Below are positions 2,298 through 20,135 of a stretch of 64,000 bases of DNA, one piece after another; position 1 is the first letter of the stretch, and every line of letters begins with the position of its first letter. Source of the stretch: Neoroseomonas alkaliterrae (GTDB taxonomy: Bacteria > Pseudomonadota > Alphaproteobacteria > Acetobacterales > Acetobacteraceae). The translations under genes were made by a program, and so were the position numbers. The stretch spans positions 310,001 to 374,000 of the forward strand of contig NZ_JACIJE010000003.1 in assembly GCF_014199195.1 (NCBI RefSeq), in the 5' to 3' direction. Under the pieces are notes generated by a model. It was not told the DNA's origin, made no database searches, and saw nothing but the letters and a program-made list of their open reading frames with translations.

Positions 2298-2328
2298 TGC
2301 GCCGGCAGGCCGGGGGCGCCGAACGCCG

Positions 2329-5300
2329 ATGCGCCTGAAGCCCGGCCCGCGCCGCGGCGCCGAGGCCCCGCTCGCCATCGTCGGTGCGGCCTGCCGCCTG
2401 CCCGGCGCGCCCGACCTCGACGCCTTCCGCCGGCTGCTCGAGGAAGGCGGCGACGCCGTCGGCACCGTCCCCGCCGAGCGCTTCGACCAGGCGCGCTGGC
2501 TGCATCCGCGCCGCGGCGAGCCGGGCCGCAGCTACACCTTCGCCGCCGGCACCATCGGCGACGCCGCCGGCTTCGACCCCCAGGCCTTCGGCCTCTCCCC
2601 GCGCGAGGCGGCGGAGATGGACCCGCAGCAGCGCCTGCTGCTCGAAGTCGCCGCCCATGCCTTCGAGGATGCCGGCTGGCCCGCCGACCGCCTCGCCGGC
2701 CGCGCCGTCGCCGTCTTCGTCGGCGGCTCCTCGACCGATTACGCGGAGCTGCGCCTCGAGGACCCGGCGGCGGGCGACCGCTACTTCATGACCGGCAACG
2801 CGCTTTCGATCCTCGCCAACCGCATCGGCAACGTCTTCGACCTGCGGGGCGCGGCGCAGACGGTGGACACGGCCTGCTCCTCCTCCCTCGTCGCGCTGCA
2901 CCTCGCCGCACGCGCGCTGCAGGACGACCCCGGGCTGGAGGCGGCGGTGGTGGGCGGCGTGAACATGCTGCTCTCGCCCTTCGCCTTCCTCGGCTTCTCG
3001 CGCGCGGGGATGCTCTCGCCCACCGGCCGCTGCCGCGCCTTCGCCGCGGCGGCGGACGGCTATGTGCGGGCCGAGGGCGCGGGGGTGGTGGTGCTCAGGC
3101 GCCTGGCCGACGCGCGCGCCGCGGGCGATCGGGTGCGCGCGCTGCTGCTCGGCTCGGGCGTGAACGCGGCGGGGCGGACGATCGGCCTCTCGCTCCCCGA
3201 CCGCGAGGCGCAGGCGGCGCTGATCGCGCGCGTCATCGCCCGCGCCGGCGTCGCGCCCGACCGCTTCCTCGCCTTCGAGGCGCATGGCACCGGCACCCGC
3301 GTGGGCGACCCGGCCGAGGCCTGGGCGATCGGCACCGCCATCGCGCAGGCGCGCGCCGCGCCGCTGCCCATCGGCTCGGTCAAGACCAATGTCGGGCATC
3401 TCGAGCCCGCCTCCGGCATGGCCGGGCTGCTCAAGGCGATGCTGATGCTCGAGACCGGCGCCGTCCCGGCCTCGCTGCATTGCGCCGAGCCCAATCCCGA
3501 GATCGACTTCGCCGGGCTGAACCTGCAGGTGCCGTCGCGCCTGTTGCCGGTGGCGGCCGGCGCGGATGCGGTGGTGGGCGTCAATTCCTTCGGCTTCGGC
3601 GGCACCAATGCGACGGCGCTGCTCGGCCGCGCCCCGCCCGCGCGTGCGGCCCCCGCCGCGCGCGGCCGCGCCATGCCGCCGCTCGTGCTCTCGGCGCGGT
3701 CCGAGGCGGGGCTGCGCCTGCTCGCCGCGCGCTGGCGCGAAAGGCTGCGCGGCACGGGCGCGGAGGAGGCCGCGGCACTCGCCCGCGGCGTCGCGCGGCA
3801 CCGCACGCTCGCGCAGCACCGGCTCGTGCTGCGCGGGGCCGATGGCAATGCGCTCGCCACCGCCATCGCCTCCTGGGAGGGCGGCGGCGCGGGGGGCGAG
3901 GCCGGCATCGCGGCGCATGGCGGGCTCGCCTTCGTCTTCTCCGGCAACGGCGCCCAGCACGAGGGCATGGCGCGCGAGGCGCTGCGCCGCTCCGCGCCTT
4001 TCCGCCGCGCCCTCGCCGAGGCCGATGCCGTGCTCGCGCCGCTGGCCGGCTTCTCGCCGCTCGCGCTGCTGCGCCGCGGCGTCGGGGCCGATGAACTGGC
4101 CGGCACCGACATCGCCCAGCCGCTGCTCTTCGCCGTGCAGGTCGGCATCGTCGGCGCGCTCGCCGCGCAGGGCATCCGTCCCGCGCTGGTGCTCGGCCAT
4201 TCGGTGGGGGAGGTGGCGGCGGCCTGGTGCGCGGGCGTGCTCCCGCTCGATGAGGCGGCGCGGCTGATCGTCGCCCGCTCCCGCCACCAGCACCGGACCA
4301 GGGGCGCAGGCCGCATGGCGGCGATCGGCTGCGCGCCGGAGGCCGCCGCCCCGCTGCTCGAAGCCTGCGGGCCGGGGCTCGAGATCGCCGCGTTCAACGG
4401 GCCGGCCGCGATCACCGTCGCCGGGCCGGCCGAGGCGGTGGCGCGCCTCTGCGCGGCGGCCGAGGGTGCGCGCATCCCCGCCGTGCCGCTCGACCTCGAC
4501 TACGCCTTCCACGCCGCGGCGATGGAGCCGGTGCGCGAGGGGCTGCTTGCCGACCTCGCGGCGCTGGCGCCGCGGCCGGGCGGCATCCCGTTGGTGTCCA
4601 GCGTGACCGGCGCGGTGCTGCCGGGGGAGGCGGCCGGCCCGGAATACTGGTGGCGGAACCTCCGCGAACCCGTCCGCTTCCGCGACGCGGCGCGGGAGGC
4701 CGGGCGGCTCGGCGCCCGGGTCTTCCTCGAGATCGGCCCCGCCCCCGTGCTGCAATCCTACCTGCGCGAGAGCCTGCGCGAGGACGGCGCCGAGGCCGCC
4801 ATCCTGCCCAGCCTGACGCGCCGCGACCCGGCCGGCGACCCCTTCCCCGCCATCGCCGACCGCGCCGTCGCACGCGGTGCCGACCCGCGCGGCGCCCCGG
4901 CCTTCCAGGGCCGCGCCGAGCGCGCCGGCCTGCCGCGCACCCCCTTCGCGCGCCGCCGCATCTGGTTCGGGCGCTCGAACGAGGCGGTGCCGCTCGTCAG
5001 CCCGCCGCGCGACCACCCGCTGCTCGGCGCGCGCAGCACCGAGGAGCCCGTCGCCTGGTCAGCGTGGCTCGACACCGACATCGCGCCCTGGCTCGCCGAC
5101 CACCGCCTGTTCGGCGAGGCGGTGCTGCCGGCCGCGGCGATGGCGGAGATGGCGCTCGCCGCCGCCGCCGCCCGCCACCCCGAGGCGGCGGCGCTGGAGG
5201 TGACGGATCTCGACATCCTCCGCGCCATCTCCTTCGAGGCCGGGCGGGCGCGCAGCCTGCGCGCGAGCCTTGCCGGCGACGGCGCCTTCGTCCTCGAAAG

Positions 5301-8300
5301 CCGGCGGCGCCTCGCCGAGGAGCCCTGGGCGCTCGCCGCCCGGGGCCGCGCCGCCGCGCTGCCGCGCCTGCCCGCCGCACCGCCGCCCATGCCCGCGGAT
5401 GGGCGCCGCATGGGCGGGGCGGAGGTCGTGGCGCTCGCCGCCCGCGCCGGCCTCGACTACGGGCCCGCCTTCCGCCCGGTGCGGGAGGTGACGCTCGGCG
5501 CGGAGGGGGCGCGGGTCAGCCTCGCCCTGCCCGGCGAGGCCCCGCCCGCCGAGGGGTTCCACCTCCATCCCGTGCTGCTCGACGGCGCCCTGCAGGGGCT
5601 GGTGGCGCTGCTGGCCGGGCGGGCGGAGGGGCAGTCCCTGGTGCCGGTGCGCATCGGCCGGCTGGCCTGGCGGCGCGGCGCGGGCCAGCCCGTGATCGCG
5701 GAGATCCGCCCGACCCGCCGTGGCGAGCGCTTCCTCGCCGCCGATCTCGTACTGCGCGATGCCGCCGGTGCCGCCGTCGCCATCGGCTCCGATGTCTGGC
5801 TGCAGCGCGTCCCGCTGCCCGGGCGGCAGAAGGCGGAGGCGCATGCCTTCCGCCTCGATCCCCTGCCCGCGGCACCGCTGCCGGCCGAGCCCGCGCCGCT
5901 GCCCCTCGAGGCGGCGCTCGCGGCCCTGCGCGCCGCCGATGCCGCGGCCAGCCTCGCGGAACCGGCGCTGCTGCTGGAAGGCTTCGCCGCCGCCGCCGCG
6001 CTCGCCGCCCTGCCTGCCGCCCCGCCGCTCGCCACGCCCTATCGCCGCGCGCTGTGGCAGGAGCTGGCGGATTCCGGCCTCGCCGAGGAGACCGCCGCCG
6101 GCTGGCGCGTCGCCGAGGATGCCGCCCTGCCGCCCGCGTCCGAAATCTGGCGCGAGGTGCTGGCCGAACAGCCCGGCCTCGCGCTCGACCTCGCCTGGAT
6201 CGCCGAAGCCGCCGAGCGCCTGCCCGCCGCGCTCGCGGGCGAGGCCTGCCCCGCCCCGCCACCCCCGCCCGAGAGCGGCGGCTTCGCCCGCCTCGCCGCC
6301 GTGCTCGAAGCGGCCATCGCCGCGCTTGCGGCCGCCTGGCCCGAGGGGCGGCTGCTGCGCGTGCTCGATCTCTCGGGCGGCGGCCCGCTGACCCGGCGCG
6401 CGGTCGCCACCCTCGCCGCGAGTGGCCGCCATGTCGCGTATCGCGCGGCGGGCGAGGCCCGGCCCGGCGCCGCCCCGCCCGCCGCCGAGCGCATCGCCTT
6501 CGCCTTCACGGGCCCGGACCCGCTCGCCGCCGGGGCGGTGCCGGAACCGGCGGATCTCGTGATCGGCCTCGGCGCGGCGGCGCGGGGGCGGTCGGGCACG
6601 GCGCTCGCGGCGGCGCTGCGCCCGGCCTGCGCGCCGGGGGCGGTGCTGCTGCTCGCCGAGCCCGCGCCCGGCCGGCTGTGGGATTTCGCCTGCGGCCAGG
6701 ACCCCGCCTGGTGGGAGGGCGGCGAAGCCGCGCTGCCCGGCGCTGCCGCCTGGCGCGCCGCGCTCGCCGCCGCGGGGTTCGAGACGCCGGAGGCGCTGCC
6801 CCTTGCCGCCGCGCCCTGGCCCGCCCTGCTGCTCGCCGCGCGCGCCCCGGCGGTGGCGCTGCCCCGCCCGGCGGCGCGGCGGCGCTTCCTGCTCCTCGCC
6901 GAGCCGGGCTGCGCGCGCCTCGCCGCCCTGCTGGAGGCCGCGCTGCGGGCGGAGGGCCACGAGGCCGCGCGCGGCGGTGCGGATCCCCCCTCCCCGCGCG
7001 CGATGCGCGGCGCCGGCTTGGTGCTGCTCGCCGATGGCGCGGGCGGGCTCGCCGGGAGCCTCGCCGCCGCCACCGCGCTCGCCCGCGCCGCCGAGGGCGC
7101 GGCCGAGGGCCTCGTCCTGGTCGGCGCCGGCGGCGCGGCGCCGGCGGCCGCGCTGGCCGGCCTCGGCCGCGTGCTCGCGAACGAGGCGCCGGGGCTGCGG
7201 ACGCGCCGCATCACCCTCGCCGCCGGCCTCGCGCCCGAGGCCGCCGCGCGCCGCCTCGCCGCCGAGCTCGCCGGGGATGCGCCGGAGGTCACGCTCGGCC
7301 CGGATGGCCGGCGCGTGCCGGCGCTGCTGCCGGGCCTGCCGGCGCCGCGGGGCGGCCCGCGCCGGCTCGTCACCGGCCAGCCGGGGCAGATCGGCAGCCT
7401 CGGCTGGACCGGGCTCTCCGGCCTGCCCGCGCCCGGCCCGGGCGAGGTGCGGCTGCGCGTCACCGCCGCCGGGCTCAATTTCCGCGACCTCCTGTGGGCC
7501 CAGGGCCTGCTGCCGGAGGAGGCGCTGCTCGACGGCTTCGCCGGCCCCGGCCTCGGCATGGAATGCGCAGGCGTGGTCGAGGAGGCCGGCCCCGGCGTCG
7601 CGCTGCGCCCCGGCCAGGCGGTGTTCGGCTTCGCCCCGGCGGCCCTTGCCACCCATGCGCTGACGCGCGCCGAGGCCCTCGTTCCCCTGCCCCCGGGCCT
7701 CGCGCCCGAGGCCGCAGCGACCATCCCGGTCGCCTTCCTGACCGCCGCCTATGCGCTGGAGACGCTCGCGCGCATCCGCCCCGGCGAGCGGGTGCTGATC
7801 CATGGCGGGGCGGGCGGCGTGGGGCTCGCCGCCCTGCAGGTCGCGCGCGCGGCGGGGGCGCGGGTCGCGGCCACTGCCGGGAGCGAGGCGAAGCGCGCCT
7901 TCCTCCGCCTCGCCGGCGCGGAGCTCGTGCTCGACAGCCGCGACGCCGGCTTCGCTGACGCGCTGCGCGCCGCCTGGCCCGGGGGCGTGGAGGTGGTGCT
8001 GAATTCGCTCGCGGGCGAGGCGATGGAGCGCAGCCTCGGCCTGCTCGCGCCCTTCGGGCGGTTCGTCGAGCTGGGCAAGCGCGACTTCGTGGAGAACCGC
8101 CGCGCGCCGCTGCGCCCCTTGCGGCGCAACGCCTCGTATTTCGCGGTGGATGCGGATGCGCTGCCGCGCGCGAAGCCGGACCTCGCCCAGGCGCTGCTGG
8201 CCGACCTCGCCGCGCGGCTCGCCGAGGGCGCGCTGCTGCCGCTGCCGCACGCCGTCTTCGCCGCCGAGGAGGCCGAGACCGCCTTCCGCACGCTGCAGGC

Positions 8301-9504
8301 CTCGGGCCATATCGGCAAGCTCGTCATCCGCCCGCCCGCGGACGCGCAGGCAGCGCCCGAGGCCTGGAGGCCCGATCCCGGCGGGACCTATCTCGTGGTG
8401 GGCGGCACCCAGGGCTTCGGCCTGGAATGCGCGAAGTGGCTCGCGGCGGAGGGCGCGGCGCATCTCGTGCTGGTCTCGCGCCGCGGCGGCGAGGCGCCGG
8501 GGGCGGAGGCGGCGCTGCGCACCCTCGCCGCCCTCGGCGCGCGCACCCGCATCCACGCGTGCGACGCGGCGGAGGAGGACGCGCTCGCCGCCCTGCTCGC
8601 GCGGCTGCGGCGCGAGGGCCCGCCCCTCCGCGGCGTCGTCCACGCCGCCGCCGCCTATGCCGACGGCGCGGCATCGGGAATGGACGCCGCGCGCTTCGCC
8701 GCCGCGCTCGGGCCGAAACTCGCCGCGGCCGAGGCGCTCGACCGGCTCACCGCGGAAGACCCGCTGCATCTCTTCCTGCTCTTCTCCTCGGCCACCACGG
8801 CCTTCGGCAATCCGGGCCAGGCCAACTACGTCGCGGCCAATGCGGCGATCGAGGCGATCGCGCGGCGGCGCCACGCCGAAGGGCGCCCGGCGCTCGCGGT
8901 GGGATGGGGGCCGATCGCCGATGCCGGCCTGCTCGCGCGCGAGGCCGCGACCGCCGAGGCGCTGGAACGCCGCACCGGCGTCGCGCCCATGCCGGCGGCC
9001 GAGGCGCTCGCCGCCCTGCCCGCGCTGCTCGCGGCGGGCGTTCCGGTGGTGCATCTCGCGCGCATCGGCTGGGCGCAGCTGACCGCCGGCCTGCCCATCC
9101 TCGCCGAGCCCGCCTATGCCGCGGTGCGCACCGCGCGGCAGGACGGCGCCGAGGGCGCGGAACTGCGCGCCGCCCTGCGCGCCCTGCCGCCGCACGAGGC
9201 GCGGGCGCGGCTGACGCGGCTGGCGCAGGAGGAGGCCGGGCGGATCCTCCGCCTGCCGGCCGATGCCGTCCCGGCCGAGGCGCCGGTCGCCGGGCTCGGC
9301 CTCGATTCCCTCGGCGGGCTCGAACTGCGCATGGCGCTGGAACGCCGGCTCGGCGTGCAGGTGCCGCTCGCGGCGGTGACGGAGGACCTCACCCTTGCCA
9401 TCCTCGCCGCGCGCATCGCAGGCGTGGTGCTGGAGGAGCGCGAGGAGCAGGCCCTGGAGGTGCTGATGCAGGCCTATGAACCGGCCGCGGAGCCGGCGGG
9501 GTGA
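2329..9504 (+). CDS. Iterative, fully reducing type I polyketide/fatty acid synthase (RkpA/WcbR-like)
   Basis: A 2,391-residue multidomain synthase. KS: Cys183 in DTACSSS, His319 in EAHGTGT, and NVGH. AT: Ser625 in GHSVGE. DH: His925 in HRLFGEAVLP and Asp1085 in DGALQ. A middle region of about 500 residues is Ala-rich and looks like a degenerate methyltransferase plus structural KR half. ER: IHGGAGGVGL near residue 1825. KR: GGTQGFGLE near 2025, with Tyr2167 in YVAAN. ACP: Ser2327 in GLDSL. There is no thioesterase; the next gene overlaps by GTGA and encodes an oxoamine synthase, which would release the chain onto an amino acid. The ATG at 2329 was chosen because it starts just before the KS; more upstream codons run into the glycosyltransferase. 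Known relatives are rkpA and wcbR of capsule loci. The product is inferred to be a lipid anchor or precursor, not shown. Confidence 0.92.
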   Translation: MRLKPGPRRGAEAPLAIVGAACRLPGAPDLDAFRRLLEEGGDAVGTVPAERFDQARWLHPRRGEPGRSYTFAAGTIGDAAGFDPQAFGLSPREAAEMDPQQRLLLEVAAHAFEDAGWPADRLAGRAVAVFVGGSSTDYAELRLEDPAAGDRYFMTGNALSILANRIGNVFDLRGAAQTVDTACSSSLVALHLAARALQDDPGLEAAVVGGVNMLLSPFAFLGFSRAGMLSPTGRCRAFAAAADGYVRAEGAGVVVLRRLADARAAGDRVRALLLGSGVNAAGRTIGLSLPDREAQAALIARVIARAGVAPDRFLAFEAHGTGTRVGDPAEAWAIGTAIAQARAAPLPIGSVKTNVGHLEPASGMAGLLKAMLMLETGAVPASLHCAEPNPEIDFAGLNLQVPSRLLPVAAGADAVVGVNSFGFGGTNATALLGRAPPARAAPAARGRAMPPLVLSARSEAGLRLLAARWRERLRGTGAEEAAALARGVARHRTLAQHRLVLRGADGNALATAIASWEGGGAGGEAGIAAHGGLAFVFSGNGAQHEGMAREALRRSAPFRRALAEADAVLAPLAGFSPLALLRRGVGADELAGTDIAQPLLFAVQVGIVGALAAQGIRPALVLGHSVGEVAAAWCAGVLPLDEAARLIVARSRHQHRTRGAGRMAAIGCAPEAAAPLLEACGPGLEIAAFNGPAAITVAGPAEAVARLCAAAEGARIPAVPLDLDYAFHAAAMEPVREGLLADLAALAPRPGGIPLVSSVTGAVLPGEAAGPEYWWRNLREPVRFRDAAREAGRLGARVFLEIGPAPVLQSYLRESLREDGAEAAILPSLTRRDPAGDPFPAIADRAVARGADPRGAPAFQGRAERAGLPRTPFARRRIWFGRSNEAVPLVSPPRDHPLLGARSTEEPVAWSAWLDTDIAPWLADHRLFGEAVLPAAAMAEMALAAAAARHPEAAALEVTDLDILRAISFEAGRARSLRASLAGDGAFVLESRRRLAEEPWALAARGRAAALPRLPAAPPPMPADGRRMGGAEVVALAARAGLDYGPAFRPVREVTLGAEGARVSLALPGEAPPAEGFHLHPVLLDGALQGLVALLAGRAEGQSLVPVRIGRLAWRRGAGQPVIAEIRPTRRGERFLAADLVLRDAAGAAVAIGSDVWLQRVPLPGRQKAEAHAFRLDPLPAAPLPAEPAPLPLEAALAALRAADAAASLAEPALLLEGFAAAAALAALPAAPPLATPYRRALWQELADSGLAEETAAGWRVAEDAALPPASEIWREVLAEQPGLALDLAWIAEAAERLPAALAGEACPAPPPPPESGGFARLAAVLEAAIAALAAAWPEGRLLRVLDLSGGGPLTRRAVATLAASGRHVAYRAAGEARPGAAPPAAERIAFAFTGPDPLAAGAVPEPADLVIGLGAAARGRSGTALAAALRPACAPGAVLLLAEPAPGRLWDFACGQDPAWWEGGEAALPGAAAWRAALAAAGFETPEALPLAAAPWPALLLAARAPAVALPRPAARRRFLLLAEPGCARLAALLEAALRAEGHEAARGGADPPSPRAMRGAGLVLLADGAGGLAGSLAAATALARAAEGAAEGLVLVGAGGAAPAAALAGLGRVLANEAPGLRTRRITLAAGLAPEAAARRLAAELAGDAPEVTLGPDGRRVPALLPGLPAPRGGPRRLVTGQPGQIGSLGWTGLSGLPAPGPGEVRLRVTAAGLNFRDLLWAQGLLPEEALLDGFAGPGLGMECAGVVEEAGPGVALRPGQAVFGFAPAALATHALTRAEALVPLPPGLAPEAAATIPVAFLTAAYALETLARIRPGERVLIHGGAGGVGLAALQVARAAGARVAATAGSEAKRAFLRLAGAELVLDSRDAGFADALRAAWPGGVEVVLNSLAGEAMERSLGLLAPFGRFVELGKRDFVENRRAPLRPLRRNASYFAVDADALPRAKPDLAQALLADLAARLAEGALLPLPHAVFAAEEAETAFRTLQASGHIGKLVIRPPADAQAAPEAWRPDPGGTYLVVGGTQGFGLECAKWLAAEGAAHLVLVSRRGGEAPGAEAALRTLAALGARTRIHACDAAEEDALAALLARLRREGPPLRGVVHAAAAYADGAASGMDAARFAAALGPKLAAAEALDRLTAEDPLHLFLLFSSATTAFGNPGQANYVAANAAIEAIARRRHAEGRPALAVGWGPIADAGLLAREAATAEALERRTGVAPMPAAEALAALPALLAAGVPVVHLARIGWAQLTAGLPILAEPAYAAVRTARQDGAEGAELRAALRALPPHEARARLTRLAQEEAGRILRLPADAVPAEAPVAGLGLDSLGGLELRMALERRLGVQVPLAAVTEDLTLAILAARIAGVVLEEREEQALEVLMQAYEPAAEPAG

Positions 9505-11643: not shown

Positions 11644-13035
11644 TCAGCCCGCGACCGCCGCGCGCAGCGCCCGGTGCAGCCCCGCCGCGTCGAGCGTGCA
11701 GGGCGGGCCGCCACCGGGCCTGTCGCTGCGCCAGACCAGCATGTCCGTGTCCGTCCCGCCGCGCGCCTCCGGCAGCGCCGGGCGGTGGTCCCCGAAGGCG
11801 GCGATCACCACCGGGCGGGTGCAGCCACGCGCCGCCGCGGCGACGGCGCCGAGCATCCCATCCGTCGCCACCATGCGCGCCGCCCAGTCCGCCGCATCCG
11901 CCCACGGGCCATGCGCCGCGACAGTGATCGCGTAGAGGAAGGCGGGCCCCTGCGCGGCGGCGAGGTCCGCGACCACGCGCGCACCGAGCGCGGCGTCGGT
12001 GACCAGGCCGCGCTCGCGCGGCGCATCGGCGAAAGCCTCCGCGCCGAGGAAGCGACGGAAGCCGAGCGCGGGCAGCACGCGGTCGCGGCCGAAGAAGCGC
12101 CGGTCATGCGGATGCAGGCAGGCGGTGTCGTAGCCCGCGCCGCGCAGCGCCCAGGCGAGCGAGGCGACGGGCGCGCGCGCGAAGCGGAAATAGGGGTTCA
12201 GCCGGTCGAGCCCCATCGCCTCGTCCGTCAGGCCCGTCAGCACGGCGCATTCGGTGCGCATGGTGTTGGCGCCGAAGCCGGGCACATGGAGCCGGCCATG
12301 CAGCAGCGCCTCCGCCGCCAGCGCGTCCCAATGCGGCAGCGCGGCCGCGAGCCCGAAGCGGCGCGGGTCGCAGAAACTCTCGAGCTGCAGCAGCACGAGA
12401 TGCGGCGGCACCGCGTCTTGGGGCAGGCGCGCCGCCTCGGGCGGATGCGCGGCGCGGCGCGCGCCCCGCTCGGTGGCGGCGAGGCGCGCATGGATGGCGA
12501 AGGTCGCGAGCGGCCCGAAGCGCGCCGCATCGGCCACCGGATCGCGCGCGACCGCGGCGCCGCCCAGCAGCGCGAGCGGGCGCAGCAGCACGAGGACGCA
12601 GCCCGCCGCCGCCGCCAGCATCGCGCCCCGCGCCGCGGCCCCGATCGCCAGGGCAGGCTCGAAGGCCAGGGCCGCGGCAAGGGCCGCAGCGCCGGCGCCG
12701 ATCCCGCCCGCGAGCACGGGCCTCGGCACGAAGGGCAGGTAGAAGCGCGGATGGGCGAAGACCTGCCAGAGCAGGCCGCCATCGGTGAAGACCAGCGGCT
12801 CGTTCAGCGTCGCGCGCTTGGCGCGGTCGGCGACGCCGAGGAACACGCCGGCGGCGGCGACGATACCGCCCGCCAGCAGCGGCCGCGCCGTCAGCGCGAG
12901 CAGCGCGAGGAAACCCGCCGCGACGGGCAGCGCGTCCAGCAGGAGGAAGCGGTCCGCCCGCGCGCCGCGCCGCAGCCACAGCCATGCCGCCAGCGCCGGC
13001 GCGAGGCCGGCGAGCAGATGCGCCGCCGCGCTCAC
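11644..13035 (-). CDS. Membrane-anchored alkaline-phosphatase/sulfatase-superfamily enzyme (LtaS/OpgB-like)
   Basis: 463 residues: an N-terminal membrane region of roughly four or five hydrophobic segments (to about residue 170) and then a periplasmic catalytic domain. Visible metal and nucleophile signatures are LQLESFCD (Glu219), GANTMRTE (Thr258 as likely nucleophile), AAHGPW, and FGDHRPAL (Asp and His near 414). This pattern is that of LtaS, OpgB and EptA, which move phospho-polar groups, rather than of true sulfatases, which need a formylglycine. The start is GTG 13035, overlapping the SDR stop (GTGA); longer frames upstream only shadow the SDR. It matches the slot of rkpI/wcbQ as I recall it. 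It may decorate the capsule lipid or chain; substrate unknown. Confidence 0.8.
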   Translation of the reverse strand: MSAAAHLLAGLAPALAAWLWLRRGARADRFLLLDALPVAAGFLALLALTARPLLAGGIVAAAGVFLGVADRAKRATLNEPLVFTDGGLLWQVFAHPRFYLPFVPRPVLAGGIGAGAAALAAALAFEPALAIGAAARGAMLAAAAGCVLVLLRPLALLGGAAVARDPVADAARFGPLATFAIHARLAATERGARRAAHPPEAARLPQDAVPPHLVLLQLESFCDPRRFGLAAALPHWDALAAEALLHGRLHVPGFGANTMRTECAVLTGLTDEAMGLDRLNPYFRFARAPVASLAWALRGAGYDTACLHPHDRRFFGRDRVLPALGFRRFLGAEAFADAPRERGLVTDAALGARVVADLAAAQGPAFLYAITVAAHGPWADAADWAARMVATDGMLGAVAAAARGCTRPVVIAAFGDHRPALPEARGGTDTDMLVWRSDRPGGGPPCTLDAAGLHRALRAAVAG

Positions 13036-13811
13036 GCCTCGGGCGCGATGCGGAAGCGCATCCGCCGCACCGCCCAGTCCGAGACGCCGGCGGGCAGCGC
13101 ATCGAGCAGGCGCAGCAGCGCGGCGAGCGGCAGCGGGAAGGCGCAGCGCCCGCGCCCGCGCAGGATCGCCGCATGGATGCGCGCCGCCGCCGCTTCCAGC
13201 CCGAGCGCGAGCGGCCGCGGCCCGATCCAGCGCTGCCCCATCGCGCTGTCGAAGAAGCCCGGCAGCGCCACCGTCACCGCGATTCCCTGCCCGGCCAGCG
13301 CCGCGCGCAGCCCTTCCCCATAGGCGCGCAGCCCGGCCTTGGAGGCCGCGTAGCCCGGCGCATCCGGCAGGCCGCGATAGGCGGCGAGCGAGGCGATCAG
13401 CGCGATCCGCCCCGCGCCCCGCGCGCGCATCGCAGGCAGCAGCGGCTCGATCAGGTGCATCGCGCCGGCGAGGTTCACCGCCACCTGATCGGTCGCGCCG
13501 GCCAGGCCTTCCCAGGCGCCGTCGGGGGTCACGCCGCGCGAGATGCCGGCATTGGCCACCACGCAATCCACCGCGCGCTCGGCATCCCAGGCGGCGAGGC
13601 GGGCGGCGAGCGCGGCCGCGTCGCGCACGTCGAGCACGGCCGTCTCCACCGCCGCCCCGCGCGCGGCGCAGGATGCGGCGGTGCGCGCGAGGCCCTCAGC
13701 CCCGCGCGCGAGCAGGCAGAGCGAGACGCCCGGGCCTGCGAAGCGCCCGGCCAGCGCCGCGCCGAGCCCGCGCGAGGCGCCCGAGATCACGATGCGGCGC
13801 GGCGGCTGCAC
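13032..13811 (-). CDS. SDR oxidoreductase of the capsule lipid set (RkpH/WcbP-like)
   Basis: 259 residues with a classical SDR layout: GASRGLG near residue 11 (NADP-binding), NAG in the fourth strand, Ser in IALIASLAAY, and YAASK (catalytic Tyr and Lys). The C-terminal part is longer than in FabG and carries a hydrophobic-basic tail. The start is GTG 13811, which puts PPRRIVISGASRG at the N terminus; an upstream ATG would add 21 residues translated out of the kpsS tail. It starts 4 bp after the kpsS stop and overlaps the next gene by GTGA. A plausible job is reducing the 3-keto group left by the oxoamine synthase, as 3-ketosphinganine reductase does; this is inference. Confidence 0.85.
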   Translation of the reverse strand: MQPPRRIVISGASRGLGAALAGRFAGPGVSLCLLARGAEGLARTAASCAARGAAVETAVLDVRDAAALAARLAAWDAERAVDCVVANAGISRGVTPDGAWEGLAGATDQVAVNLAGAMHLIEPLLPAMRARGAGRIALIASLAAYRGLPDAPGYAASKAGLRAYGEGLRAALAGQGIAVTVALPGFFDSAMGQRWIGPRPLALGLEAAAARIHAAILRGRGRCAFPLPLAALLRLLDALPAGVSDWAVRRMRFRIAPEA

Positions 13812-13815
13812 GGCG

Positions 13816-14556
13816 CTATTCCGCGGCGAGGCGCGCGAGATCCGGCGCCGCCGCCTCGAGCCGCGCCACGGCATTGGCCACCGCCTCGGCGATGCCGGCC
13901 TCGCTGAAGAAGCCGCCGCGGATCAGGCAATGCGCGGCGAGCACGCGGCGCAGCGCGTCCACCAGCGCCGGGTCGGGCGGCGCGGCGGCGGTCCAGAAGC
14001 GATCGAGCCCGCCCTGGAAGGTGAGCCCCGGCATGTCGTAGTGCGCGCGGCCGAGCACCACGACGGGCTTGCCCTCGCGCAGCGCCTGCAGCCCGGCGGT
14101 GCTGTTGATGGTCACCACGCCCGCCGCCGGCGCCAGCACCGGGCCGAAGGGCAGTTCGGGCAGCCAGAGCAGCCGCCCCGCCACGCCGAGCGCCTCGGCC
14201 TCGCGCCGCGCGAGGCGCCCCCAGTCGGTCAGACCGTTGTCGAGCGGGTGGCCCTTCAGCGCGAGCAGCGCCTCGGCCGGCGCATGCGCGGCGAAGGAGC
14301 GCAGCACGAGGCGGATCGCCTCCCCCAGCCCGGCGAAGTCGGAATGCAGCCGCAATTGGAAGTCGCCCTCCAGTTGCAGCGGCATCACGAAGACCGGCCC
14401 CGGCCAGGCGCGCAGGATGCCGACGCGCCGCCAGGCGAGGCTGCGCCTGAGCGGCCGCAGCGCGCCCCGCCCGAGCCAGCCGGCATATTCGTGGAACGGG
14501 TTCCAGGCGCGGTGCGTGCGCCAGTGCGAGACGTAGCCGGCCTGATGCTTATGCGC
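13816..14556 (-). pseudogene. kpsS: kpsS/rkpJ capsule Kdo transferase, N-terminal half missing
   Basis: About 247 codons are open, ending at TAG 13816. They match the C-terminal half of KpsS: PLQLEGDFQLRLHS, LALKGHPLDNG, VVTINSTAGLQAL, and YDMPGLTFQG...RFW, each with a clear counterpart in E. coli KpsS as I remember it. KpsS is a cytoplasmic Kdo transferase of about 390-400 residues that starts the poly-Kdo linker on the capsule lipid. Here the frame meets a stop at 14557-14559, and beyond it base composition drops sharply. The only standard internal start is GTG 14388 (190 residues), which cannot make a whole enzyme. I read it as truncated by replacement of its 5' part. Downstream genes of this strand would have lost their original promoter. 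Confidence 0.8.
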
Positions 14557-14569
14557 TTATCGATAAGCG
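14554..14569. repeat. 16-bp perfect palindrome at the edge of the low-GC insertion
   Basis: CGCTTATCGATAAGCG is its own reverse complement. It lies exactly where KpsS homology ends and low-GC DNA begins, and it supplies the TAA that closes the truncated kpsS frame. It could be an element end, a recombination site or an operator. No second copy is visible at the right edge. Confidence 0.6.
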
Positions 14570-15495
14570 ATAATGGATCGAATAGTCTCAAAAAAGCGAC
14601 CTCCCGAATGCGTTATTTCTGCGTTATTACGTGGTTTCGGATATACTCATGATGCAAGTTTTTCGTTTTCTATCAATTAGTTGTTGGATTTTTCTGCCTG
14701 CCGACGTTATCAATCAGGGGTTTTATTGCGCTAGGCACGCGCACGCGTTTCGCGTATCGTTTGCCATGCGCATATCCCAGAAAGGAGATCGTTCCGCATG
14801 AATTGCGCATTTTTGGGTCATACCCCATCGGTCGGCATCACGTTCGCCGATCACGCCAAGTTGCCGGAGCACTACAAACACCTCATGAACGCCATCCGAA
14901 GCCTTGAGGAGCACTCTGCCTTCGCTCACGAGGAAGGGCACCACGAGGCCGTCCAAGTCTTGATTGCAACCGCTGGCATGCTGAGAGCGTTTGCTTTCAG
15001 GTCGGCTTGATGAAGCCCTAATGGTAGCCGCGAGGCGCAGGAGCATTCCAGAAAGTGCTGCGACGTGAGACGAGGTTGGCAGAAGCGGGCGAGGTCTAAA
15101 AAAATCCCTACCGAGAAAGCGTTTGCGGGCGAGCGAGGCGAAAGCGGACGCAAATGCCCAGCAGCGGGCGCGAACGGCAATGCCAACTTATTTCTTGACT
15201 TGTGTATGATCCTAGCGCGCGTCGCGGTGGCGCTAGTAGAGTGGGATCGAGGATGGCCGCTTTCGATGAGTGCGAACGGCATGAATCGCTCACCGCGACG
15301 CGAGGTGCTCATTGGTGACAGCGCGCTGCCCCGGCCATGGATTTGGGCGGAATGGTGTGGAAGCGTCAGACAAAGCCCATCCGCGCCTATCATCGCGTGC
15401 CGTTCGCAGCGCCTGATGTTCTGCCCCGCGGTGTAGGCCCGTGGATCGCTGCGATCGCGCGCCTGACGCCCGGGTTGATAATCAGTCTTCAGATT
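14557..15495. other. Low-GC foreign segment between two truncated genes
   Basis: About 0.94 kb differs from its surroundings. 14581-14700 has about 32-43% GC against over 70% outside; the part after 15000 is mixed. Edges are approximate: the left is set by the end of KpsS homology, the right by the return of host-like codons near 15495. It contains a 70-aa gene with a good ribosome site (14798-15010). The remaining stretch, 15011-15440, has no convincing gene; it holds a 12-bp inverted repeat (15218-15229 with 15291-15302) that could form a long-loop stem. No transposase, integrase or terminal repeats were found. Confidence 0.7.
14798..15010 (+). CDS. Small uncharacterised protein carried by the low-GC segment
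   Basis: 70 residues, starting ATG 14798 with AAGGAG at 14782-14787 (10 bp spacing), the best Shine-Dalgarno in this part. The protein is His-rich (seven His) and looks helical in the middle (LPEHYKHLMNAIRSLEEHSAFAH is suggestive, with HEEGHHEA after it). No membrane segment or signal peptide. Codon use is far less GC-biased than in the capsule genes, consistent with transfer. I do not recognise the family. No convincing promoter boxes were found upstream. Confidence 0.5.
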   Translation: MNCAFLGHTPSVGITFADHAKLPEHYKHLMNAIRSLEEHSAFAHEEGHHEAVQVLIATAGMLRAFAFRSA

Positions 15496-15722
15496 CGCCT
15501 TGGCATCCCTCCCCCGGCGCCGATGACACGGTCGTGCTGCCCGCCACCGGCCAGACCGCGCGGGTGCGCCTCGTGCGCGCCTACGCCGCGGCGAGCGGCC
15601 GCGAATGCCGCGAGGTGCTGGTCGGCACCGGCGGCGGCGGCACCTCCCGCCTGCTCTGCCGCGCGGGCGAGGGCTGGCGCGAGGCGCGGCCGCTCATCAC
15701 CGCCGGCACGGGCAGGCCGTGA
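15441..15722 (+). pseudogene. C-terminal fragment of a surface-antigen-like (RT0821/17-kDa type) protein
   Basis: From about 15519 the frame is host-like and reads ARVRLVRAYAAASGRECREV and later SRLLCRAGEGW. The pattern SGR-x-CRE ... C ... GW resembles the C-terminal domain of 17-kDa surface-antigen-like lipoproteins, which end with two conserved Cys. Upstream of about 15495 the frame passes into the foreign segment, and no signal peptide or lipobox can be found, so the 5' end seems lost. The nominal GTG at 15441 lies in the foreign part. Its TGA overlaps the kpsM start as GTGA, which suggests the intact ancestor was the first gene of the kpsMTED operon. The family call is tentative. Confidence 0.5.
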
Positions 15723-16519
15723 GCGGGGCCTCGGCCCGCCCCCTGCTCATCGACTGCGCGCGGCAGCAGCTGCGCGTCATCGGCGCGCTCATCATCCGCG
15801 AGATGCACACGCGCTTCGGGCGGCGGCGCCTGGGCTATCTCTGGGTGTTCCTCGAACCCCTGCTGCTCGGGGCGATGATCGCGCTGATCCACGGCTCGCG
15901 CGGGCGCTTCAGCGGCGAGACGATGCGCGCGACCTTCGAGTTCTTCGCCATCGGCTACATCCTGTTCTTCAAGTTCCGCGGCATCATCAACCGCGCGGCC
16001 ACGACCATCAGCGCCAATCGCGGCCTGCTCTACCACCGGCAGGTGACGCTGCCGGACCTGTTCTACGCCCGCCACATCATCGAGGCGGTGGCGTGCACGG
16101 GCGTGCTGATCGTCTTCGTCATCGCCGCGGTGGCGCTTGGTGGCGATGCGCCGGATTCGCCCATGCAGATGATCGTCGCACTCGGGCTGATGCTGCTGCT
16201 CTCGCAGGGGCTCGCGCTGATGATCGGCGCGGCGACCACGGAATGGGAGGGGCTGGACCGCTTCGTCCACGCCTTCTCCTACGTGATGCTGCCCTTCTGC
16301 GGCGTCTTCTTCATGGTCGAGTGGCTGCCCGAATGGATGCGCGAGATCGTGCTCTGGATCCCGACCGTGCACATCTTCGAGTTCCTGCGCGAGGGCCAGT
16401 TCGGGGACAAGGTGAAGGCGACCTACGACCTCGGCTACGTCGCCGGCTGGATCCTGGTGCCGCATCTGCTCGGCCTCGCGGGGCTGAGGCTCGCGCGCCA
16501 GCGCATCGGGCTCGAGTAG
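15719..16519 (+). CDS. kpsM: Capsule ABC transporter permease KpsM
   Basis: 266 residues of the ABC-2 type with about six membrane segments; LGYLWVFLEPLLLGAMIA and the conserved cytoplasmic N-terminal REMHTRFG are typical of KpsM/Wzm-like permeases. It forms the inner-membrane channel that moves capsule polysaccharide to the periplasm with KpsT. GTG 15719 is chosen because it overlaps the previous TGA and begins just before the amphipathic N-terminal helix; a longer frame upstream encodes unrelated Arg-rich sequence. kpsT follows after 5 bp. Because its start depends on coupling to a now truncated gene, expression may be altered. Confidence 0.92.
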   Translation: MSGASARPLLIDCARQQLRVIGALIIREMHTRFGRRRLGYLWVFLEPLLLGAMIALIHGSRGRFSGETMRATFEFFAIGYILFFKFRGIINRAATTISANRGLLYHRQVTLPDLFYARHIIEAVACTGVLIVFVIAAVALGGDAPDSPMQMIVALGLMLLLSQGLALMIGAATTEWEGLDRFVHAFSYVMLPFCGVFFMVEWLPEWMREIVLWIPTVHIFEFLREGQFGDKVKATYDLGYVAGWILVPHLLGLAGLRLARQRIGLE

Positions 16520-16524
16520 GCGCC

Positions 16525-17160
16525 ATGCTCGAACTGCTCGACGTCCACAAATCCTACCGCATGCTGGCCGGGCGCAAGCATGTGCTGCGCGGCGTCAACG
16601 CCACCTTCCGCAAGGGCGAGCGCGTCGGCGTGCTCGGCCGCAACGGCTCGGGCAAGTCCACCCTGGTGCGCATCCTCGGCGGGGTCGAGGCGCCGACGCG
16701 GGGCACGGTGCGGCGCTCGATGTCCGTCTCCTGGCCGATCGGCATGGCGGCGGGCTTCCAGACCGCGCTCTCCGGGGCGGACAATACCCGCTTCATCGCG
16801 CGCATCTACGACCGCCCGGTGAAGGAGACGGTCGAATTCGTCGAGAGCTTCGCCGAGCTCGGCGAATACCTGCGCATGCCGGTCCACACCTATTCCTCGG
16901 GCATGCGCTCGCGGCTCGGCCTCGCCATCTCGCTCGCGGTCGAGTTCGACTGCTTCCTGGTGGACGAGGCGCTGGCCGTCGGCGACACCAGGTTCGGCCG
17001 GGCCTTCGGCGCGCGGCTGCAGCGTGCGGGCCTCATCCTCGTCACGCACCAGCCCTCCCTCGTCCGCCAGCTCTGCACCCGGGCCGCGGTGCTGGATCAG
17101 GGCACCCTCACCTTCTACGAAGACCTCGATGAAGCTCTCGCCACCTACAACAGCCTTTGA
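16525..17160 (+). CDS. kpsT: Capsule ABC transporter ATPase KpsT
   Basis: 211 residues, the normal short length of KpsT (no C-terminal carbohydrate-binding domain as in Wzt). Walker A GRNGSGKST with Lys44; signature YSSGMRSRLGLAISLA replaces the common LSGGQ, as usual in KpsT; Walker B FDCFLVDEA; switch His in LVTHQ. It powers KpsM. It begins 5 bp after kpsM and its end overlaps kpsE by 32 bp, so the four genes are surely one operon. Confidence 0.95.
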   Translation: MLELLDVHKSYRMLAGRKHVLRGVNATFRKGERVGVLGRNGSGKSTLVRILGGVEAPTRGTVRRSMSVSWPIGMAAGFQTALSGADNTRFIARIYDRPVKETVEFVESFAELGEYLRMPVHTYSSGMRSRLGLAISLAVEFDCFLVDEALAVGDTRFGRAFGARLQRAGLILVTHQPSLVRQLCTRAAVLDQGTLTFYEDLDEALATYNSL

Positions 17161-18313
17161 CGGCCCGGCCGCCGAGGCGGTCCCCGCCTGGAGCCCGGCC
17201 CCGCCCGAGCCGCCGCCCCGGCCGCGATCCCGTCTGCGGCGCTTCCTGCGCCACCCCTACACCTGGTGGGTGCTGCTGCCGACGCTGATCGCCGCGACCT
17301 ATTTCTACGGCATCGCGAGCCCGCAATATGTCAGCGAGGCGCGCTTCGTGGTGCGCTCGCGCGCCGATGCGCCGCAGCTCTCGCTTGGCGCCGTGCTCAC
17401 GGGCGCGGTGGGCGGCAGCGCGTCCAACGAAGGCCACAGCGTGCGCGACTTCCTCACCTCCCACGACGCGGTGATGCGCACGCATGAAAGGCTGAACCTC
17501 GTCGAGATCTGGCAGCGGGAGGAGGCGGATTTCGTCGCGCGCCTGCGCCACGACGACCCCGAGCGCCTGACCCGCTACTACAACGGCATGGTCTCGGCCT
17601 CCTACGACAGCACCACCGCGGTGGTGACGCTGCGCGTGCGCAGCTTCCGCCCCGAGGATTCCAAGGCCATCGCGGACACGCTGCTCGCCCTCTCCGAGAC
17701 GCTCGTGAACAGCCTCTCGGAGCGCGCGCGCGAGGATGCGCTGCGCGTCGCGCGCGAGGAGGTGGCGATCGCCGAGCGCCGCGTCGTCGCGAGCCGCGAG
17801 GCGCTGACGCGTTTCCGCGAGCAGCAGCAGGACCTCGACAGCGCCGGCTCCGCCCAGGCCGCGGTGCAGACCATCGCGCAGCTCGAGGGCGCGCTCACCG
17901 CCGCCCAGGCCGAGCTGCGCGAGCGCATGGCCTTCATGCGCCCAGACAACCCGGCGCTGCAGTCCACACGCAACCGCATCGCCGCCCTCGAACGCCAGAT
18001 CGCGGCCGAACGCGCCCGCCGCACCCAGGGCGACGGCGCGCTCTCCCAGCAGCTCGCGGCCTTCGAGCGCCTGATGCTCGAGCGCGAATTCGCCGACCGC
18101 CAGCTCGCCTCAGCGACGGCGAGCCTCGAGACGGCGCGGATGGAGGCGCAGCGCCAGCAGCTCTACCTCGCGCGCGTGGTCGCGCCCAACCTCGCCGTCC
18201 ACCCGCTCTATCCACGGAAACTGATCAGTGTCGGCAGCATCTTCCTCGGTCTCTCGGTCGCCTTCGGCATCGGCTGGCTGCTCGTCGCGGGCATGCGCGA
18301 ACATGCGGCCTGA
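17129..18313 (+). CDS. kpsE: Capsule export inner-membrane/periplasmic adaptor KpsE (PCP-2/3 type)
   Basis: 394 residues. A Pro-rich cytoplasmic N terminus precedes TM1 (WWVLLPTLIAATYFYGIA, about residues 47-64). A periplasmic part with long coiled-coil helices (about 190-320) follows, then a C-terminal TM (LISVGSIFLGLSVAFGIGW). This is the layout of KpsE/BexC/CtrB, which links KpsMT to the outer-membrane pore KpsD. ATG 17129 lies within the kpsT end; earlier in-frame codons are shadows of kpsT. The stop overlaps the kpsD start by 11 bp. Confidence 0.93.
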   Translation: MKLSPPTTAFDGPAAEAVPAWSPAPPEPPPRPRSRLRRFLRHPYTWWVLLPTLIAATYFYGIASPQYVSEARFVVRSRADAPQLSLGAVLTGAVGGSASNEGHSVRDFLTSHDAVMRTHERLNLVEIWQREEADFVARLRHDDPERLTRYYNGMVSASYDSTTAVVTLRVRSFRPEDSKAIADTLLALSETLVNSLSERAREDALRVAREEVAIAERRVVASREALTRFREQQQDLDSAGSAQAAVQTIAQLEGALTAAQAELRERMAFMRPDNPALQSTRNRIAALERQIAAERARRTQGDGALSQQLAAFERLMLEREFADRQLASATASLETARMEAQRQQLYLARVVAPNLAVHPLYPRKLISVGSIFLGLSVAFGIGWLLVAGMREHAA

Positions 18314-20135
18314 CTTCCGGCGCGTGGTCGCGCTGGCCGGGGCGATGCTGCTGCTGGCCGCGGGCGGTGCGCTGGCGCAGGCCAATCGCGGGGGGCTGCC
18401 GCCGGGGATCGGCGGCGTGCCGGGCGGGCTGCCCGGCTTCACCAGCGCCCCGCCGGGCCCCGGCACAATGGGCGGCGCGCCGCCCGTGGGCACGCCCGCG
18501 ACGCAGCCGCCGCCGGTCTTCGACCGCCGCAGCCTCGCCGACATCCCGGGCCAGCAGCGCGGGATCGAGCGGCTGGGCAGCCCCACCCAGGCCGAGGGCG
18601 GGCCCTCCCTCGTCGCCCCGCTCGGCGACCAGGCGCGCGTCTCGGGGCCGGCGACGGCGGTGTTCGGCGCCTCGCTCTTCACCGGCCAGCCGCAATCCTC
18701 CTCCGATGCGCCCAACCCGAACTACGTGCTGGCGCCGGGGGACCGCGTCTCGGTGCGCGCCTGGGGGGCGGTGGAATCGGAGATCGTCGGCGTCATCGAC
18801 CCGGCGGGGAACCTGTTCCTGCCCAATATCGGGCCGATCCCGCTCGCCGGGGTGCGCGTGGGCGACCTGCAATCGGTGGTCGAGGCCGAGATCCGCAAGG
18901 TCTACACGGCGCAGGTGCAGGTCTATGCGACCACGCTCTCGACGCAGCGCATCGGCGTCTTCGTCACCGGCTTCGTCCGCCAGCCCGGGCGCTATGCGGG
19001 CGTGGCCTCGGATTCGATCCTCGATTTCCTGGTGCGCGCGGGCGGTGTGGATCCGGGCCGCGGCTCGCACCGGGAGATCACGCTGCGCCGGGGCAATGCG
19101 ACCGTCGCCTCGGTGGACCTCTACCGCTTCCTCCTCGACGGCACGCTGCCGCAGCTCCGCCTGCAGGAGGGCGACACCATCGTGGTCGGGCGCCAGCGCG
19201 CCATGGTCGGCGCCGACGGTGCGGTACGGAACAACTACCTGTTCGAGAGCACCTCCCGCGCCTCGCTGACCGGGCGCGAGCTGATCGAGCTCGCCCGCCC
19301 GCTGCCCGCCGCGACCAATGCCGTGGTGCGCGGCGTGCGCAACGCGCAGCCCTTCTCGCGCTACATGTCGGTGGCCGAGCTCGCCTCCCAGACGCTGCTC
19401 GACCAGGACACCGTCACCTTCGTCGCCGACGTCGCCGCGCGGACCATGCGCGTCACGGTCGAGGGCAGCCGCCTCTACCCCTCGGTGCTGGTGGCCGACC
19501 GCGACATGACGCTGTGCCAGATCCTCGACCACATCGCGGTGGACCCCGCGCTTGCGGACACCGAGGGCGTCTTCCTGCTCCGCCCCTCCCTCGCGCAGAG
19601 CCAGAAGCGCGCGATCGACGAGGCGCTCGACCGGCTCGAACGCCAGCTCTTCCTCGCCCCGGCGGCGACCACGCGGGTGGCCGATGCGCGTGCGCAGGAA
19701 GCGCAGATGATCACGCAGTACATCTCGCGCGCCCGCCGCACCCAGCCCGAGGGCCGGCTCGTGGTGATGGGCCCCGATGGCCGCTGCAGCCCGCTCAGGC
19801 TCGAGAACGGGGACATCATCGTCATCCCCGAACGCTCGCAGACCGTCTTCGTGCAGGGCGAGGTGAACTTCCCGCAGGCCGTGGTCTGGCGTGAGGGCTG
19901 GTCCGCCGCCCAGTTCATCGAGGCCGCGGGCGGCCTGACCCCGCGCGGGCGGATGTCCACGCTGATGCTGCGCCGCCCCTCGGGGCAGGCCATCCTCAAC
20001 CCGCAGCAGGCGCCGCGCCCCGGCGACGAGCTGATCGTGCTGCCCTATCTCGACCCGAAGGTCTGGCAGTTCGCGACCGACCTCGTGACCGCGCTGTTCC
20101 AGGTCGCCCTCGCCGCCCGCGTGTTCCGGGACTGA
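18303..20135 (+). CDS. kpsD: Polysaccharide export outer-membrane protein KpsD
   Basis: 610 residues. An N-terminal signal peptide ([17 protein letters not shown]) is followed by a Gly/Pro-rich low-complexity linker to about residue 135. Then comes the polysaccharide export domain (YVLAPGDRVSVRAWGAVES onward) and several SLBB-like repeats. Length and lack of a lipobox fit KpsD rather than the shorter lipoprotein Wza. It would form the periplasmic/outer-membrane conduit for capsule. ATG 18303 overlaps the kpsE end. The phosphoesterase gene starts 4 bp after its stop, so transcription likely continues into it. Confidence 0.92.
   Translation: MRPDFRRVVALAGAMLLLAAGGALAQANRGGLPPGIGGVPGGLPGFTSAPPGPGTMGGAPPVGTPATQPPPVFDRRSLADIPGQQRGIERLGSPTQAEGGPSLVAPLGDQARVSGPATAVFGASLFTGQPQSSSDAPNPNYVLAPGDRVSVRAWGAVESEIVGVIDPAGNLFLPNIGPIPLAGVRVGDLQSVVEAEIRKVYTAQVQVYATTLSTQRIGVFVTGFVRQPGRYAGVASDSILDFLVRAGGVDPGRGSHREITLRRGNATVASVDLYRFLLDGTLPQLRLQEGDTIVVGRQRAMVGADGAVRNNYLFESTSRASLTGRELIELARPLPAATNAVVRGVRNAQPFSRYMSVAELASQTLLDQDTVTFVADVAARTMRVTVEGSRLYPSVLVADRDMTLCQILDHIAVDPALADTEGVFLLRPSLAQSQKRAIDEALDRLERQLFLAPAATTRVADARAQEAQMITQYISRARRTQPEGRLVVMGPDGRCSPLRLENGDIIVIPERSQTVFVQGEVNFPQAVVWREGWSAAQFIEAAGGLTPRGRMSTLMLRRPSGQAILNPQQAPRPGDELIVLPYLDPKVWQFATDLVTALFQVALAARVFRD

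Follow-up and report, generated by a model that had tools for sequence, protein, structure and literature searches.

Can a capsule locus that has kept its whole export machinery still make the lipid-linked anchor of a canonical capsule when foreign DNA lies across its linker genes? Poly-Kdo is reported to typify ABC-dependent capsules, the Vi antigen being the notable exception (PMC12220298), and in the reported pathway KpsS begins the poly-Kdo linker, which KpsC then extends (PMC10148158). The locus discussed here lies in a 64-kb window, the whole stretch of DNA that was analysed (G000:C3:310001-374000; GC 74.4%), from a host genome of 4.24 Mb in 50 contigs with a completeness rating of 100%. 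It is highly probable that foreign DNA bearing a decayed IS5-family element entered this locus, that 2.7–3.0 kb of native DNA was lost, and that the canonical poly-Kdo capsule ended with the exporter left intact. The lesion is real, larger than first noted, and a mechanistically ordinary case of gene loss associated with mobile DNA.

Towards the left of the window, a PKS-like ORF (2167-9504) that is kept in relatives is adjoined by an AONS-like gene and then by a formyltransferase-like gene; these three names are presumptive assignments. The PKS, AONS-like, SDR and LtaS-like genes of the window presumably resemble rkpA, G, H and I. The minus strand carries an LtaS-like gene of the sulfatase family (11644..13041; PF00884) and an SDR gene (13032..13874; PF00106), the latter given as its longest ORF, with the true start probably lower. 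The SDR gene lies 3' of a kpsS remnant (13816..14535, minus strand; PF05159), which is followed by the foreign block of ~0.96 kb (14546..15505, assigned to neither strand), recognised by its GC content, the spacing in nine relatives and the junctions. On the plus strand, the 3' remnant of a DUF5061 lipoprotein gene (15510..15722), identified by the DUF5061 profile and by alignment to relatives, sits directly upstream of kpsM (15719..16519), kpsT (16525..17160), kpsE (17129..18313) and kpsD (18303..20135), all intact. The assignment of kpsM is based on PF01061, relatives and a match to PDB 8tsh_C, while kpsT, kpsE and kpsD have open frames and orthologues and take their names from the preliminary description and gene order.

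The kpsS gene has lost its 5' part. In a profile search, the window gene covers positions 101-310 of the 310 of PF05159, compared with 2-310 in an intact relative, and thus lacks the full-length domain of a KpsS beta-Kdo transferase. Its open frame spans 246 codons as against 411-877 in 11 close relatives (matches at E < 1e-110), and the longest ORF with a start codon within the remnant is of 190 aa. When aligned to the 11 relatives, conservation begins at 'SHWRTHRAWN', at about residue 174 of the 407 in relative L041, such that ~43% of the protein, its N-terminal part, is lost and the C-terminal ~57% remains. The remnant keeps QLEGD, which contains the catalytic Asp and is present in 11 of 11 aligned relatives; it corresponds to the QXXXD motif reported for the KpsS family (PMC10148158). 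The alignment places the left junction at ~14,527-14,546, in agreement with the preliminary description, in which KpsS homology stopped at about 14550. An ancestrally short KpsS was rejected as an explanation, as all 11 close relatives are full length and none shares the short form, the finding that would have spoken against a truncation.

The right junction lies at ~15,504-15,510, where 'SPGADDTVVLP' in the window takes up 'SPGAEDSVVLP' of the relatives. Coding had been described as resuming near 15495 in the middle of a gene, and that gene proves to be the lipoprotein gene. Conservation begins at about residue 54 of 123 (L041 reference); ~53 residues are lost, and with them the signal peptide and the LAGC lipobox that can be read in the L041 lipoprotein. 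Alignments to relatives therefore bear out the view that both truncated genes lost their 5' ends to foreign DNA.

The native loss is considerably larger than the two missing gene ends. The junction points lie 2.7–3.0 kb apart (2.72–3.00 kb) in all nine spanning relatives (L040-L048), which, like all relatives compared, belong to species other than that of the host; two further close relatives (L049 and L050) have contigs that end inside kpsC and so fall outside the spanning set. In each of the nine, the interval holds the rest of kpsS, a complete kpsC, a divergent start region and the 5' part of the lipoprotein gene, and KpsC of the eight others is 64-72% identical to the 647-aa KpsC of L041. 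Since a complete kpsC lies between the junction points in nine of nine cases, the whole of kpsC is evidently lost from the window along with both 5' ends. A KpsC search of the host's own genome gave no match, and a kpsC match is present in 21 of the 35 genus genomes searched (own included). Of a complete group-2-like (ABC-dependent, poly-Kdo) capsule locus, kpsM, T, E and D are thus all present and open in the window, and kpsC is missing from the genome.

In L041, the starts of kpsC (13013, minus) and of the lipoprotein gene (13089, plus) lie ~75 bp apart and the two genes diverge; the lost start region is therefore that of these two genes. Judging by position, it probably served a kpsC-kpsS-SDR-LtaS unit on one side and a lipoprotein-kpsMTED unit on the other. 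It was correctly described before that a shared start region and both 5' ends had been swapped for foreign DNA and that the remnants point apart; what has to be revised is the extent of the native loss, which is 2.7–3.0 kb and includes all of kpsC, and the identity of the divergent pair: in relatives, the lipoprotein gene diverges from kpsC, and kpsS lies downstream of the latter.

One concern is that an error of assembly or binning produced a chimeric join that put foreign DNA between two broken genes. The evidence is an assembled contig, the block differs from its surroundings in base composition, and no relatives of its left half were found. However, the join lies inside a contig of 465 kb, the flanks are the correct neighbours in a conserved order, and the missing kpsC and 5' ends do not turn up on any other contig, although the genome is rated 100% complete. 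A chimera is disfavoured because one made of real DNA would normally leave the missing parts on another contig, and we regard an artefact as very improbable.

The block that replaces 2.7–3.0 kb of native DNA with ~0.96 kb is, by its composition and contents, foreign DNA. Its mean GC is 55.6%, with 50% in the left half and 61% in the right half, and the lowest 100-bp GC windows of the entire 64 kb (37-41%) all fall within 14,551-14,740. A GC content of 32-43% had been noted for the block, which fits roughly its first 200 bp, whereas the remainder is at 54-65%. The right half holds, on the minus strand, the relic of an IS5-family (DUF4096/DDE_Tnp_1) transposase (15102..15505), recognised by its homology to a transposase gene that lies at the end of a contig in genome G003. 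The two share 65% DNA identity over 344 bp, and at the protein level 35% identity over 112 residues together with a second piece in another frame. The G003 transposase matches DUF4096 and DDE_Tnp_1 in Pfam and is thus of the IS4/5 type, although the relic itself reached no Pfam model. A search of the own genome with the relic gave a match at E 1.3e-14, and further partial transposase matches occur on its small contigs C23 and C33.

The AT-rich left half holds a 70-aa orphan ORF (14798..15010, plus strand) behind an AGGAG that resembles a ribosome site. No convincing relatives of this ORF were found in plasmids, IMG/VR, genome contigs or 385 genomes of the class, where all hits were at chance level; an exact 20-mer from the ORF start occurs in one Lachnoclostridium MAG contig, about the number expected by chance, and in no viral contig. 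As the IS-like reading reaches about to the stop of the ORF, the ORF may, by eye, represent a foreign gene of which only the 5' part remains. For the block DNA as a whole, no match was obtained in plasmids, phages or Rfam, and matches of 30-50 bp in three of 395 genomes of the order (G174, G285 and G341) were taken as chance. The sole match among 39 genomes searched is the IS-type stretch in one other genome; shared intervening DNA, which would have argued for an older arrangement in relatives, is thus limited to that stretch.

The presence of an ORF with a plausible ribosome site raises the question of whether the 0.96-kb block entered by simple insertion, as an entire small mobile element or a functional gene module. 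The left edge of the block also carries a perfect 16-bp palindrome (CGCTTATCGATAAGCG; 14,554-14,569), which could be a recombination or binding site. Against this, the transposase has one frameshift and is missing roughly its first 100 residues at the N-terminus, no convincing terminal repeats, paired ends or target duplication frame the block, no second copy exists in the own genome, and the ORF has no relatives in any of the collections named above. Further, insertion alone leaves the loss of 2.7–3.0 kb unexplained, so that a complete element is scarcely credible.

The preferred reading remains that of a foreign segment coupled to a deletion. A segment already carrying the decayed IS5-family element would have entered the capsule locus, and a deletion, IS-adjacent or illegitimate, would have removed the 2.7–3.0 kb between mid-kpsS and the middle of the lipoprotein gene, also cutting the IS relic. 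The order and mechanism of these events are our reconstruction from what the locus displays directly, namely its anatomy, the missing kpsC match, the two truncations and the IS relic. The relic was probably dead on arrival, because its decay appears much more advanced than that of the kpsS remnant. The block may also have brought new signals with it. Two promoter-like matches were found against 0.2 expected in shuffles, each with nine of 12 consensus positions: one (14649..14676, minus strand) points toward the kpsS remnant and the SDR and LtaS-like genes, and the other (15076..15105, plus strand) toward the lipoprotein remnant and kpsMTED. As one match points outwards on each side, new transcription of both flanks from the block is possible.

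With KpsC, extension of the linker would have been lost, and its start would have been hit by the loss of the N-terminal part of KpsS. Acceptor recognition in KpsC is reported to rest on its N-terminal domain (PMC10148158), and we infer by analogy that the N-terminal part of KpsS would act in the same way. Because KpsC is absent and KpsS lacks its N-terminal part, synthesis of the poly-Kdo linker, and with it the canonical poly-Kdo-anchored capsule, is probably lost. Kdo-linker synthesis had earlier been called crippled on the strength of kpsS; the absence of kpsC and the truncation of kpsS both agree with that verdict, which we keep as a probable consequence drawn from the known pathway.

The verdict had carried the proviso that no other kpsS exists, and KpsS and PF05159 searches of the own genome reveal no second intact copy. 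Besides the remnant, the KpsS search found one match on contig C7 (34% over 150 residues), and the PF05159 search returned the same two. The C7 gene (L053, G000:C7, 9446-10576, minus) encodes a stand-alone 376-aa PF05159 protein and adjoins an ORF resembling peptide chain release factor 2. With 34% identity over 150 residues and 39.7 bits to PF05159, it was rejected as a second kpsS.

The exporter genes that remain would be explained either by a recent loss or by another use of the exporter. Amino-acid differences, averaged between the window and close relatives and divided by the average among the relatives (tblastn matches below 33% identity or 60% query coverage dropped), give a ratio of 1.05 for the kpsS remnant and 0.86-1.51 for ten other genes of the locus. 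Among the genes tested, the others of the locus are open and none shows unusual divergence or decay. Since the kpsS remnant diverges no faster than the other locus genes, the loss is evidently recent relative to the divergence of the species of the genus.

A broader view of the genus bears on the second explanation. A KpsM match at E <= 0.001 is found in 34 of 35 genus genomes and a strong one (E <= 1e-20) in 31, of which 10, own included, have no kpsC match. Five of these 10 keep kpsS (G019, G046, G048, G049 and G050) and four have neither gene (G006, G014, G045 and G016), the window with its remnant being the tenth; G016 is uninformative because its kpsM contig is only 3 kb. No PF05159 match was found in G006, G014 and G045, in a profile search that can miss genes broken by contig ends, as G011 and G042, which have partial kpsC, also score zero.

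Selection was assessed by dN/dS for pairs within the G006/G014/G045 and the G019/G048/G050 groups. Among the former, kpsM gave 0.055-0.088 and kpsT 0.078-0.086 over three pairs each, kpsE and kpsD gave 0.073 and 0.038 from a single pair each, and the lipoprotein gene gave 0.061, 0.080 and 0.249. These values indicate that, where comparable, kpsMTED is under purifying selection in G006, G014 and G045. The DUF5061 lipoprotein gene is found directly 5' of kpsM in both clades (e.g. L066 9482-9733 and L041 13089-13460), for the most part under purifying selection, and the lipoprotein may on this account take part in the export system.

In a KpsT+E+D tree of 18 genomes, made without the short or incomplete loci of G045, G016, G002, G018 and G015, the window clusters with the intact loci of G001, G013 and G040 at a weak support of 0.68. 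As the tree puts the window outside the low-GC clade of the other kpsC-less genomes, whose branch has a support of 1.00, the linker loss of the window appears to be separate from theirs.

Other observations concern the linker genes elsewhere in the genus. The kpsS of L071 (G048) differs from those of L064/L069 (G019/G050) at dS 1.70-1.77, far above the dS of 0.06-0.22 of the adjoining kpsMTED, which suggests that kpsS was exchanged or replaced horizontally. In G002, a contig without kpsS (L075, G002:C62) has two tandem one-module KpsC-like genes (5278-6405 and 7712-8827; frames of ~486 aa), and similar single one-module genes occur in G007 and G039. The kpsS of L021 (G017:C18) has one in-frame TAG and is possibly broken, or the codon is an error in a fragmented genome. 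The glycolipid-site residues of KpsM were considered as a sign of changed substrate and set aside: the TM5 positions vary genus-wide with or without KpsC, Arg35 and Arg94 are kept throughout the genus, and Trp45 mostly.

That the exporter of the window still serves another substrate or anchor, its locus uncoupled from the Kdo linker and the block perhaps giving outward promoters, is the less probable reading. It would accord with the absence of kpsC from 10 of the 31 genomes with strong kpsM, the low dN/dS of kpsMTED in three genomes without a PF05159 protein, the open and not unusually diverged state of all other genes of the window locus, the promoter-like matches facing outwards, and the reported export of the Vi capsule without KpsS and KpsC (PMC12220298). 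However, recency by itself accounts for the intact genes, and no surface polymer was reportedly detected in an engineered system that lacked KpsS or KpsC (PMC11041684). Further, the other kpsC-less genomes fall in another clade, in which no PKS-type gene set adjoins kpsMTED, and are an imperfect guide, and KpsC or KpsS may hide in fragmented assemblies. A recent end of the canonical capsule remains the preferred reading; that there is no capsule at all does not follow, because congeners keep kpsMTED without KpsC or KpsS.

Judged by titles and the openings of abstracts, literature searches among open-licence papers gave none on this locus, and known systems resemble it only in part. The rkp/wcb clusters are alike in that a type I PKS gene (rkpA/wcbR) is reported to accompany their genes for capsule synthesis and export (PMC3908369), but the window has lost its linker enzymes. 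In E. coli K1, IS insertions in the capsule cluster are reported to give resistance to phage K1F (PMC9241782), and there, as here, mobile DNA inactivates capsule genes of an ABC-transporter-dependent cluster. In contrast to the K1 insertions, the lesion in the window is irreversible, because what remains of its element is dead and embedded in unrelated foreign DNA, and ~3 kb of native sequence has gone. The Vi antigen of Salmonella Typhi is exported by vexA-E, described as a KpsMT-type exporter without KpsC and KpsS (PMC12220298, PMC3448643). Vi, however, has its own anchor enzyme, VexE, whereas no replacement enzyme was identified in the window genome, where the state arose by a visible deletion.

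For annotation, the lesion is useful as a correction to a locus that would pass for a complete capsule cluster though both linker enzymes are gone or broken. The recurring uncoupling of exporter from linker enzymes is of more interest than the lesion itself, as several congeners keep a selected KpsMTED without any KpsC/KpsS-family enzyme found. We propose, tentatively and as the less probable outcome, that in this genus KpsMTED and the DUF5061 lipoprotein form a unit that can be detached from the poly-Kdo linker; kpsC, and in part kpsS, would have been lost in at least two separate lineages while the exporter stayed under purifying selection and exported a polymer on an anchor made by neither KpsC nor KpsS. 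If true, this system would join Vi as an exception, and the window genome would be only now reaching that condition by way of a deletion tied to foreign DNA. The pattern among the congeners makes it possible to test in environmental bacteria what a KpsMT exporter can carry without a Kdo linker.
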